In this document: piece by piece, positions 11,198 through 13,543 of the stretch
Layout: each line of letters starts with the position of its first letter
How positions within the stretch are numbered: the first letter of the stretch is position 1
Assembly (NCBI RefSeq): GCF_016405905.1
Contig: NZ_JAEFCB010000001.1
Coordinates: forward strand, 1,054,001-1,118,000
Length of the DNA: 64,000 bases
Direction of reading: 5' to 3'
Source: Variovorax sp. IB41
Lineage (GTDB): Bacteria; Pseudomonadota; Gammaproteobacteria; Burkholderiales; Burkholderiaceae_C
Made by a program: the position numbers and the translations under genes
The notes under the pieces: generated by a model
The model's database searches: none
What the model was told of the DNA's origin: nothing
What the model saw: only the letters and a program-made list of their open reading frames with translations

Positions 11198-11219
11198 GCG
11201 GGTCGCGCCGCGTGCGGCG

Positions 11220-11375
11220 CTACAGGGGCCGCCAGGGATAGTCAGAGACGAGCTTCATCGCCAACGCCATCATCGAAAAAGCGACGATGAGGTCGAGCGC
11301 CTGCCAGGCGCGCCGATCGCGGAACAAGGGCGCTGCCAGGCGGGCGCCGAAGCTCAGGAAAGTAAACCAGATGAA
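11220..11375 (-). pseudogene. 3' remnant of a LysE/ArgO-type amino-acid exporter gene
   Basis: The minus strand encodes about 51 residues resembling the end of LysE-family exporters: a WFTFLSFGARLAAPLF helix-loop, the family-like RRAWQALDLIVAFSMMALAMKLV helix, then a stop. No start codon or 5' part exists; upstream the frame meets a stop within about 20 codons, where base composition drops sharply. The missing 5' part is not seen elsewhere in the window. The gene appears to have been truncated by the insertion that brought in the adjacent AT-richer island. Confidence 0.55.
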
Positions 11376-11676
11376 GAAATCAATCGAGACAGTGGTGTAT
11401 TGATTTGGATTTTTGAAAACGGCTGTTCACGCAGCCGCCAGGGTCTGCGCGGCGCCCGGCAAGCCGGCGCACTCTTTCTCGCGCGGCCCTCTCATCAATC
11501 CCGCTGTCACCTTGTTAGTGTTTGGAAAATTGAAATAACAATTCAATCAAAAAAACCGCCGACCTGCTCAATTCCATCGTGTCTTTTGTGAAAAACTTCC
11601 ATATCGCGCTACGTTTAGGGACTAATCTAGTTCGTTCGCGCTTTGCGGACGATTTTTCAACAAAGGGAGTCGTTAA
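11376..11676 (+). promoter_or_regulatory. AT-rich leader of the MccB-like island
   Basis: This 300-bp stretch has no gene I can support. It marks the change from high-GC chromosome to AT-richer island. It contains an inverted repeat ATTGAA-N7-TTCAAT at 11529-11547, a possible operator. AT-rich sequence around 11585-11635 probably holds the promoter of the peptide gene; no perfect sigma-70 boxes were identified. The stretch ends with the strong ribosome binding site AAAGGGAG eight bases before the ATG. Confidence 0.45.
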
Positions 11677-11913
11677 ATGAAGAAGAAAATTTCAATCGGC
11701 CTTGCCTCATTTGTGTTCGGAATTGGCGCAGCCCAAGCATCCGTCCCTGCCGAGGAAATAATGGGCAATCGTGCGGTGGAGACGCAGCCTGTGATCAAGA
11801 TCTCTGTAGCGGAAAGGCCATCGAGCAGTATCACGACGACGGGGCCGTCCCGGATGACGGTGAATCGAGGATGCCACGTCGCGCCAGATCGGATGCAGGT
11901 TCTCTGCAACTGA
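11677..11913 (+). CDS. Putative secreted precursor peptide of a microcin-C-like system
   Basis: A 78-residue peptide. An N-terminal Sec-type signal (MKKKISIGLASFVFGIGAAQ, probable cleavage after AQA) is followed by a Ser/Thr-rich middle and the C-terminal tail MQVLCN. The last codon is Asn. In microcin C the MccB enzyme acts on the C-terminal Asn of the precursor MccA, and the next gene here encodes an MccB-like enzyme. An ATG 18 bases before the stop would give the hexapeptide MQVLCN, close in size to the heptapeptide MccA, but it lacks a good ribosome binding site. The strong AAAGGGAG site favours the full 78-residue product. The role as substrate is inferred from position and the C-terminal Asn; the peptide could instead be an unrelated secreted protein. 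Confidence 0.6.
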   Translation: MKKKISIGLASFVFGIGAAQASVPAEEIMGNRAVETQPVIKISVAERPSSSITTTGPSRMTVNRGCHVAPDRMQVLCN

Positions 11914-11938
11914 CAACACCGCAACTACAGAATGCACG

Positions 11939-11981
11939 GCCGCTATGCCTTCAAGCGTAGCGGCTTTTCTTTTTTATTTTT
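11939..11981 (+). terminator. Intercistronic terminator/attenuator between peptide and E1-RimL genes
   Basis: A 10-bp stem (GCCGCTATGC pairing with GCGTAGCGGC, one G-T pair) with a 6-base loop is followed directly by a 17-base T-rich tract, the pattern of a strong intrinsic terminator. It begins 26 bp after the peptide stop codon. It would give much more peptide mRNA than enzyme mRNA. The E. coli microcin C operon also has a terminator between mccA and mccB. Confidence 0.8.
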
Positions 11982-11991
11982 CATACTCGGC

Positions 11992-13506
11992 ATGGAAGAT
12001 CATATTTTTATAAACGACCATATCCTGAGCTACCGTGGCAAGCCCTTGGGAATTATTTTGCCGTCGACCTTTTTTGGCAATTCCGAGAATGGGAGCACCT
12101 TTGTTTGGAGCCCCAAAGGAACATGCCATTTCGATGGAAATTCCGAAGAAGACCTGCTCGAAGCGCTGGAAATGTCCGGCGCTTTGCTGAACGGGAGTTC
12201 CGAAGCACAAATTCAAACACAACGATTGCTGTCGAGCGCGCAGCACAGCAGAAATGCGAGCTTTTACTGCTGCAATGCGGAGACTTGCGAAGATGTGAAC
12301 TCGACCATGGAAACCATATCCCGAGTCAGAGTGATGATCGTCGGCTGCGGAGGTATCGGGAGCAACACGGCGATGATTCTGGCCGGAGCCGGGATCAGAA
12401 AATTCACTATCGCCGATGGCGATTCAATCGAGGAAAGCAACTTGAATCGCCAGCTTTTCTGGACCCGAAAGGACATCGGAAAATTCAAGACTCGCGCATT
12501 GGTCGAGAAACTGCACGAGCGATTCGACGGCTGCGATATTCAGGCGATCAATCAAAAAATCGACAAGGACTGGATAAAGGCAAATGCGCGGAACTCAGAA
12601 TGCATTGTGATCGCTGCGGACGAACCGGAAACCCTGGTCGGAAGCGGACCGGAAATTGCATTGGAATGCGGTGTTCACGTATTTGGTGCAGGCTATATGC
12701 ACCACATGGCGCATGTAATTCACAGTCCGCCCGACATGAAGAGCGATCAGCCGACCCCCAATCCATCGCCCCGGATTCAATGGCGGCGCTCACCGAATTC
12801 AATCATGCCGAGCTATGGACCGACCAATATGCTGCTTGCATCGCTCCTTTCATCGCGCCTCATTCAAGCGCTGATCGGCAAAGCCTCGATTGACCGTCCC
12901 CGGATTCAATCCTGGAATCCCATCGAATCATCGCTCGAGTCCCACGTCCCGGAAGCATTTCCGAAATTGCACAATGACGATTTGCGCGCCATGGCCGTCG
13001 GCACTTCGATCAAACTGAAAGCCATTTCGCAAAGCGATGGGCCGGCGCTTCACCAAATGATCGTGAGGGAAAAAGAGCGGCTTTCAAAATCCCTGCACTG
13101 GCCAAGATTCATCAACAGCTTCGAAGACACGGCCCGGTTTTGCGCAAACTCTGAAAAATCCTTTGGAAACTCCAATGCCATCTATATCGCGGAATTCAAT
13201 GGCGAGCTTGCCGGCGTCATATCTTTCAACCACCTCGATTTTTCCAACGGCATCGGCGATTTAGGGTATTGGCTGGCCAGCGATCACGAGAAGGAGGGCA
13301 TCGTTTCGAACTCGATCAAAGCGCTTGTCCAAGCCTACGCCGCAGCCCGCGAGATCCGGCGCTTCATCATCAAATGCGCTGCCAGAAACCGACAAAGTCG
13401 CGCCGTTGCCGAACGTCTGGGATTCCAGTTCGAAGGAACGCTCCGGCAGGCGGAAAAGATAGGCGACGAATATCTGGACCAGAGGATCTACGCCAGGATC
13501 GTCTGA
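11992..13506 (+). CDS. MccB-like E1 adenylating enzyme fused to a RimL-like acetyltransferase
   Basis: A 504-residue fusion. Residues ~1-105 match the position of the MccB peptide-clamp region. Residues ~110-320 form a ThiF/MoeB/MccB adenylation domain with MIVGCGGIGSN (118-125), TIADGDSIEESNLNRQ and DIGKFKT, which align well with MccB. The two CxxC zinc pairs of MccB are absent. Residues ~338-504 are a GNAT domain very like RimL: LGYWLASDHEKEGIVS, IRRFIIKCAARNRQS and a final YARIV. MccB converts the C-terminal Asn of a precursor into a nucleotide-linked warhead, and RimL or the MccE C-domain acetylates processed microcin C and detoxifies it. The fusion thus suggests synthesis plus self-protection. 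An in-frame ATG 20 codons upstream would place the terminator inside the gene, so the later ATG is preferred; neither has a good ribosome binding site. GC is markedly below that of the neighbours. Confidence 0.8.
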   Translation: MEDHIFINDHILSYRGKPLGIILPSTFFGNSENGSTFVWSPKGTCHFDGNSEEDLLEALEMSGALLNGSSEAQIQTQRLLSSAQHSRNASFYCCNAETCEDVNSTMETISRVRVMIVGCGGIGSNTAMILAGAGIRKFTIADGDSIEESNLNRQLFWTRKDIGKFKTRALVEKLHERFDGCDIQAINQKIDKDWIKANARNSECIVIAADEPETLVGSGPEIALECGVHVFGAGYMHHMAHVIHSPPDMKSDQPTPNPSPRIQWRRSPNSIMPSYGPTNMLLASLLSSRLIQALIGKASIDRPRIQSWNPIESSLESHVPEAFPKLHNDDLRAMAVGTSIKLKAISQSDGPALHQMIVREKERLSKSLHWPRFINSFEDTARFCANSEKSFGNSNAIYIAEFNGELAGVISFNHLDFSNGIGDLGYWLASDHEKEGIVSNSIKALVQAYAAAREIRRFIIKCAARNRQSRAVAERLGFQFEGTLRQAEKIGDEYLDQRIYARIV

Positions 13507-13543
13507 CCAGTCGCCTTCCCTTCGCCTGCTCGCTTTACCGGGC

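Follow-up and report, generated by a model that had tools for sequence, protein, structure and literature searches.

The locus at positions 11,677 to 13,506 of a 64,000-nucleotide stretch of Variovorax sp. IB41 DNA (the window) raises the question of what a small peptide gene and the adjoining MccB-like enzyme gene make together, and how such a product could leave the cell while its producer stays protected. We consider it probable that the product is a microcin C-type peptidyl-nucleotide, with a precursor exported through the general secretory (Sec) pathway and an acetyltransferase, fused to the maker enzyme, that confers self-protection. The two genes, their relatives in other genomes and the explanations that compete with this reading are considered in turn below.

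The precursor gene, the fusion enzyme and its ThiF domain

The first gene (11677..11913, + strand) is mccA-like and encodes a 78 amino acid precursor peptide that starts with MKKK and ends in QVLCN, with the AAC codon for the terminal Asn directly 5′ of the TGA stop codon; the Asn end had been described in the original prediction. The sequence AAAGGGAG, found 5′ of the gene, represents a plausible ribosome-binding site. The first 21 residues (11677..11739, +) form a predicted Sec signal peptide with a predicted cleavage site after AQA, as called by our own heuristic rather than SignalP; 3/500 shuffled sequences scored equally well. Further downstream are the codons for a first Cys, C66 (11872..11874, +), and for Cys77 and the C-terminal Asn78 (11905..11910, +), the latter two being the sole invariant columns in an alignment of 14 precursors. 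The conservation of a Cys beside the terminal Asn had been overlooked in the original prediction. C66 and C77 of the window precursor could close a 10-residue loop. An intrinsic terminator-like hairpin and T-run (11938..11975, +; hairpin 11938-11965) lie between the precursor and enzyme genes, and a terminator also separates mccA from mccB in E. coli (PMC6495379). As a family-wide trait this feature was rejected, as it occurs in only 3/16 loci under strict criteria and 4/15 under a looser criterion. A second terminator-like hairpin (11632-11652, +) can be observed just 5′ of the precursor's ribosome-binding site, in a scan whose total was not above that of shuffled sequences.

The second gene (11992..13506, +) encodes a 504 amino acid MccB-acetyltransferase fusion enzyme. 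Its reading frame can be extended to 11932, but the ATG at 11992 is the likelier start because the homologues P0002 and P0003 begin at the equivalent position; this start falls just 3′ of the terminator-like hairpin. The N-terminal region (11992..12303, +) matches, from residue 18 onwards, the peptide clamp of MccB in the predicted structure. It is followed by a ThiF/MccB adenylation domain (12304..12933, +) with the motifs GCGGIGS, NLNRQ and ADEP (Pfam ThiF; e-value: 1.8e-30), for which the nearest solved structure is MccB (3.5e-15), and by a GNAT domain of the RimL/MccE type (12991..13503, +; Pfam Acetyltransf_3; e-value: 9.7e-16), for which the nearest solved structures are RimL (2.4e-34) and the MccE acetyltransferase (1.1e-29). 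The same ThiF-GNAT fusion is present in two homologues sharing 73% and 62% identity with the window enzyme, and as such it is real and no sequencing or assembly artefact, which bears out the proposed union of both domains in one polypeptide. An additional fusion protein, P0001, is 99% identical to the window enzyme and may come from the same organism. The closer relatives among the matches listed mostly consist of ThiF alone, and in two other relatives the same ThiF domain is joined to a SAM transferase. P0004 and P0005 show a second kind of fusion, which combines an MccB-like ThiF domain with a homologue of MccD (37% identity to the E. coli protein); both lie on the branch nearest to that of the window (support 92/78).

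The window GNAT domain shares 39% identity with E. coli RimL and 32% with E. coli MccE in the same alignment, where it keeps the equivalents of MccE W453 and F466 (adenine sandwich), Y510, W511, S553 and E572. The catalytic pair of the RimL/MccE type (Ser and Glu) and its nucleotide-stacking pair (Trp and Phe) are thus both retained, while RimL itself differs at one such residue, with Thr at 466. The residue roles were taken from PMC4964394 and PMC4363471, which also describe an MccE activity of RimL itself; the former prints T453, whereas the latter and the sequence have W453. GNAT fragments were misaligned in a first structure alignment (13% identity) and were excluded, as a result of which the GNAT half of the predicted enzyme structure is of low confidence. 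This domain was therefore judged on its sequence, the fold comparisons giving it no separate test.

Whether the ThiF half belongs with MccB or with other E1 enzymes was addressed by phylogeny and predicted structure. In the tree the ThiF clade of the window (n = 34) forms a single branch (support 100/100), with the pair of E. coli MccB and P0035 as its sister (join 95/81; pair 95/74; branches long). The clustering with MoeB/ThiF that the original prediction had named as a possible refutation was not found. The predicted structure follows MccB over model residues 18 to 316, clamp residues included, a stretch in which MoeB and ThiF do not align over the clamp residues. Among the small bacterial E1-like enzymes in the matches listed, alignment from model residue 18 onwards is limited to MccB and PaaA. 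An MccB-like E1 downstream of the peptide gene is thus supported by the nearest solved structure, the tree and the predicted structure. We consider it highly improbable that the enzyme instead acts as a housekeeping-like E1 in the manner of MoeB, ThiF or TcdA, or belongs to an E1-E2 antiphage system, in which case the peptide would be an exported protein without relation to it or a substrate with a ubiquitin-like tail. The enzyme does match PADLOC E1-E2 models (best e-value: 2.8e-16, in a scan of the window enzyme and one HIT protein, with the neighbouring ORFs inspected by eye), as well as NCBIfam ThiF models below their cut-offs, but these matches are confined to its ThiF part. A MoeB/ThiF sulfur-carrier housekeeping role was rejected because the tree places the clade outside MoeB, ThiF and TcdA; moreover, the precursor ends in Cys-Asn rather than Gly-Gly, and peptide and enzyme clade are found together, as detailed below.

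Precursors and immunity families of the sister loci

Sixteen loci of the ThiF clade were compared, namely the window, L001-L007 and L125-L132. L001-L007 derive from 80 loci kept out of at least 466 candidates and are distinct among these, with e-values of 4e-38 or better against 9e-18 for the next locus. L125-L132 come from the samples of the family, of the Pseudomonas genus and of the window's own genus that are described further below. The remaining 73 kept loci, together with L087-L114, served as 101 ThiF/MoeB-type control loci. Records that repeat other loci (L116, L120, L121 and L085) were not counted, and others were replaced (L124 by the longer L131, L086 by L132, and L115, L117-L119, L122 and L123 by L125-L130); L149 and L150 were left out of the analysis. 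P0002-P0005, which were not placed in their genomes, are outside the upstream-peptide counts.

The original prediction called for a search of homologous loci for an upstream Asn-terminated peptide, and when the upstream frames were read an intact one was found in 15/16 clade loci. In L132, a stop codon breaks the precursor frame while mccB and the HIT gene remain open, and this locus may be decaying. A blind rule, which takes the closest ORF on the same strand (minimum 50 amino acids, ending within 300 nucleotides upstream) and ignores the last residue, returned an Asn end in 14/16 clade loci, versus 1/61 of the control loci having such an ORF (101 given). The two exceptions are the window, where a 105 amino acid out-of-frame ORF ends nearer to the enzyme gene and the Sec-type ORF is next, and L132 with its interrupted frame. 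The Asn-ended peptide and the enzyme clade therefore co-occur beyond chance, and the gene order, the Asn-ended precursor and the domain fusion seen in the window belong to a plan that recurs in sister loci.

Sec-like starts were recognized by the same heuristic in 14 of the 15 intact precursors, for that of L003 only when a longer n-region was allowed. Fewer than 10/500 shuffled sequences were as good in 12 of these 14, the weaker two being L128 (24) and L130 (33). L003 is titled Pantoea sp. Cy-639 yet falls within a genus sample around a Pseudomonas genome, and its title may be wrong. A Cys either directly before the Asn or one position further away is likewise present in 14/15 intact precursors, with L007, from an actinobacterium, as the lone exception for both traits. 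With the starts chosen here, the precursors are 61-78 amino acids long in the 14 intact signal-bearing loci and 53 in L007. The full precursors of the signal-bearing loci are thus outside the published range of 7-8 or 17-56 amino acids (PMC6495379), while the predicted mature parts are in or near it. A search of 5.8 billion proteins with a precursor profile yielded 15 precursors, five of them identical to locus precursors. Among the resulting 25 distinct precursors the Asn end is found in 25/25, the Cys near the end in 24/25 and exactly two Cys in 23/25, although the ten new ones provide no independent test since the search profile contains the Cys and Asn columns. The second Cys is located 10-16 residues inside the last Cys in most precursors; L006 lacks it.

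Considering immunity ARRANGEMENTS, tblastn and Pfam identified in 15/16 loci a single family of a type known to provide self-immunity to microcin C, and none in L007. In the window this family is the GNAT domain fused to the enzyme. In 11/16 loci, all of them sister loci, a HIT gene is located directly 3′ of mccB, and all 11 encoded HIT proteins contain the ExxxxxHxHxK motif, the signature of MccH, in which Lys103 is essential (PMC7157772). L004 and L006 encode MccD and a full-length MccE, while L130 harbors an S51 peptidase (Pfam; e-value: 3.2e-42), the family of MccG, which cleaves processed microcin C (PMC9239234). The two-gene layout noted originally is therefore present in the window, but it represents one of several immunity arrangements in the wider family. 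HIT and MccD never occur together in the 16 loci, which fits the reported inability of MccH to cleave aminopropylated microcin C (PMC7157772); given that MccD is present in just two loci, however, this separation may be due to chance. Between mccB and mccD, L004 (9215-11272) and L006 (8958-11084) also encode three further proteins, one of them small, one cytochrome-c-like and the third an FCSD-like flavoprotein. Pfam supports the latter two assignments for the copies of L004, whereas the small protein of L006 has no Pfam match; the exported peptide may be the substrate of these intervening proteins.

The precursors and their gene neighbours also bear on a different use of the enzyme, namely that its MccB-like domain adenylates a carboxylate which is then attacked by an internal Cys or the backbone, yielding a macrocyclic signalling peptide. 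ThiF-like enzymes of ribosomally synthesized peptides do so elsewhere, as in the GrcB thiolactones and EnfB imides (PMC12250964), and the second Cys of most precursors would suit it. However, such chemistry does not require a terminal Asn, which is invariant in 25/25, and L006 has no second Cys. Furthermore, 15/16 loci carry families associated with processed peptidyl-nucleotides (HIT with the MccH motif, MccD, MccE, S51 or GNAT), and this explanation thus appears quite improbable.

Export, proposed mechanism and known systems

In agreement with the original prediction, neither MccC nor MccF was visible, and this is true of all 16 loci by tblastn (for MccC, with the E. coli protein at an e-value of 1e-4 or 1e-3; other pumps were not systematically searched). 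Its statement that MccD is absent is correct for the window, which has neither MccD nor MccE-decarboxylase homologues, but not for the family, as both occur in two sister loci. The published minimal gene set for microcin C includes an export gene (PMC9239234), which was thus not found in the 16 loci by tblastn with MccC. The locus is likely to work in a microcin C-like manner, but without the export gene of that set having been found. Since no MccC pump or MccF was found while nearly all precursors start in a Sec-like manner, Sec export would be the simplest reading, and the paired cysteines would suit the periplasm.

We therefore suggest the following mechanism for the window. The MccB-like half would grip the 78 amino acid precursor via its clamp, use ATP to activate the terminal Asn and attach a nucleotide to it through an N-P linkage in the cytoplasm, by analogy with E. 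coli MccB, which uses ATP and joins the nucleotide nitrogen-to-phosphorus (PMC12250964). Attachment would occur before or during export, since the chemistry is ATP-dependent and no signal is evident in the 504 amino acid enzyme. The predicted Sec signal would then carry the tagged peptide out. Self-protection would result from acetylation, by the fused acetyltransferase domain, of whatever processed aminoacyl-nucleotide remains in the producer. By analogy with characterized microcin C systems, succinimide/N-P chemistry, MccE/RimL-like self-immunity and a toxic core directed at aspartyl-tRNA synthetase would be expected, while the precursor sequences suggest Sec translocation in place of MccC, signal cleavage and, in most members, a disulfide loop beside the Asn. 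We infer from this a nucleotide-bearing, Sec-exported, disulfide-containing and antibacterial product.

A nucleotidylated product could also leave by another route, with the hydrophobic precursor N-terminus acting as a recognition leader or membrane anchor, while a protease, or an exporter not linked to the locus, frees a shorter C-terminal piece. A long Yersinia MccA precursor is processed to an 11-residue peptide-nucleotide, which its authors suspect to be common for long precursors (PMC6495379), and any genome has further transporters elsewhere. However, 14/15 intact N-termini resemble cleavable signals, with a mostly positive n-region, a hydrophobic core and small residues at -1/-3, and the Cys pairs fit an oxidising compartment. 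Moreover, the starts of the cytochrome-c-like and FCSD-like proteins of L004, and alike in L006, resemble export signals by eye. This route is accordingly rated as rather unlikely.

Extending Sec export to the clade as a whole gives a family of disulfide-looped peptidyl-nucleotides with a nucleotide warhead placed on the Asn in the cytoplasm, passage through SecYEG, a signal peptidase cut and swapped immunity modules, a proposal which we regard as evenly balanced between true and false. The general secretory pathway would here stand in for the microcin pump, the two Cys would be oxidised after the signal peptidase cut to give a loop ending in the warhead, and the exchanged immunity modules would be HIT, MccE, S51, or GNAT fused to the maker enzyme.

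Several known systems share parts of this plan. The E. coli microcin C operon (mccABCDE/F, plasmid NZ_CP009074.1) has an MccB-type enzyme with an N-terminal clamp, an Asn-ended precursor and GNAT immunity in common with the loci described here, as well as the terminator between the first two genes (window) and MccD with full-length MccE (two sister loci). Its precursor is, however, a heptapeptide without a signal sequence (PMC10233263), and known longer microcin C precursors are 17-56 amino acids long (PMC6495379), whereas those observed here have 53-78 residues, with a predicted Sec signal and a Cys near the Asn in 14/15. The E. coli operon furthermore includes MccC and MccF, neither of which was found here, and its MccB is not fused to GNAT as in the window. 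The MccH-encoding mcc operon of Hyalangium minutum (PMC7157772) shares long precursors, MccB and the ExxxxxHxHxK HIT protein of the 11 sister loci, but it has an ABC-type transporter with a C39-like peptidase, and its two precursors are 36 and 46 amino acids long; the parts of its description consulted do not mention a Sec signal. The Nocardia vaccinii mcc operon with MccG (PMC9239234) has an S51 peptidase adjoining mccB, as in L130, but its product is cytidylated and carboxymethylated and its cluster is larger, with mccC and an mccX homologue. With the C-terminal acetyltransferase of MccE and with RimL, the window GNAT shares substrate and catalytic residues, but here it forms the C-terminal half of a nucleotidyltransferase-like enzyme. 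A mention of mcc-like clusters with MccH-clade proteins in Pseudomonas dates from 2020. Neither a Sec-type or Cys-Asn microcin C precursor nor an MccB-acetyltransferase fusion is mentioned in the portions of the literature searched (including PMC7680869, PMC10233263 and PMC7136475; supplementary tables excluded, such that some loci may have been listed earlier).

If the proposed mechanism holds, an unannotated antibiotic group in Pseudomonas and Burkholderiales relatives sends a nucleotide-bearing peptide through the general secretory pathway, Sec is able to transport a nucleotide-capped preprotein, and the microcin C class has an export route so far unrecognised. A signal peptide, a Cys-(x)-Asn end and this ThiF clade would then form a search signature for further members. 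In the window, one polypeptide would physically join toxin making and self-protection, so that the reason for coupling immunity to synthesis could be tested directly.

The islet and the distribution of the clade

The locus is carried on a horizontally acquired islet of 2.3 kb (11201..13540; strand not assigned) with a GC content of 53%, compared to 66.5% for the window, flanked by a sensor-kinase gene and an FG-GAP-like gene. In 5/6 same-genus genomes compared (L141, L143-L146) the site is empty, with the flanks at most about 60 bases apart; L147 and L148 were left out of this comparison. The low GC content and the empty sites show that the locus is a compact arrival in this lineage. The sixth genome, L142, has about 590 bases with a different small gene at the same junction (2188-2777), apparently encoding a secreted protein of about 150 amino acids, which raises the possibility that the site is variable. 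At the left end of the islet (11220-11400, -), a short frame resembles by eye the C-terminal end of LysE-type exporters and appears to be a remnant.

Carriage by phages was not borne out in the collections searched, where no phage record matched the L001 DNA. Carriage by plasmids was likewise not borne out, as no plasmid record in those collections covered 80% of the ThiF queries; among the plasmid matches listed (15 of 75 records), those from E. coli, which include the mcc plasmid NZ_CP009074.1, are 40% identical across 41% of the query.

The ThiF clade is rare in the genomes sampled, in samples that overlap one another. Within its own genus, members are present in 2/101 genomes, namely that of the window and G1109 (L131), the latter with the HIT layout. 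In the family sample, 221 genomes matched at the search threshold of 1e-20, but only 2/299 (the window's own and G232) did so below 1e-45, the rest being at 6.9e-30 or weaker. The class and order samples yielded 1/369 and 1/300, in both cases the window's own genome, while the Pseudomonas genus sample yielded 9/398, three of which had already been collected. One of the precursors, P0142, is found on 165 contigs, where it is labelled merely as 'hypothetical protein'.
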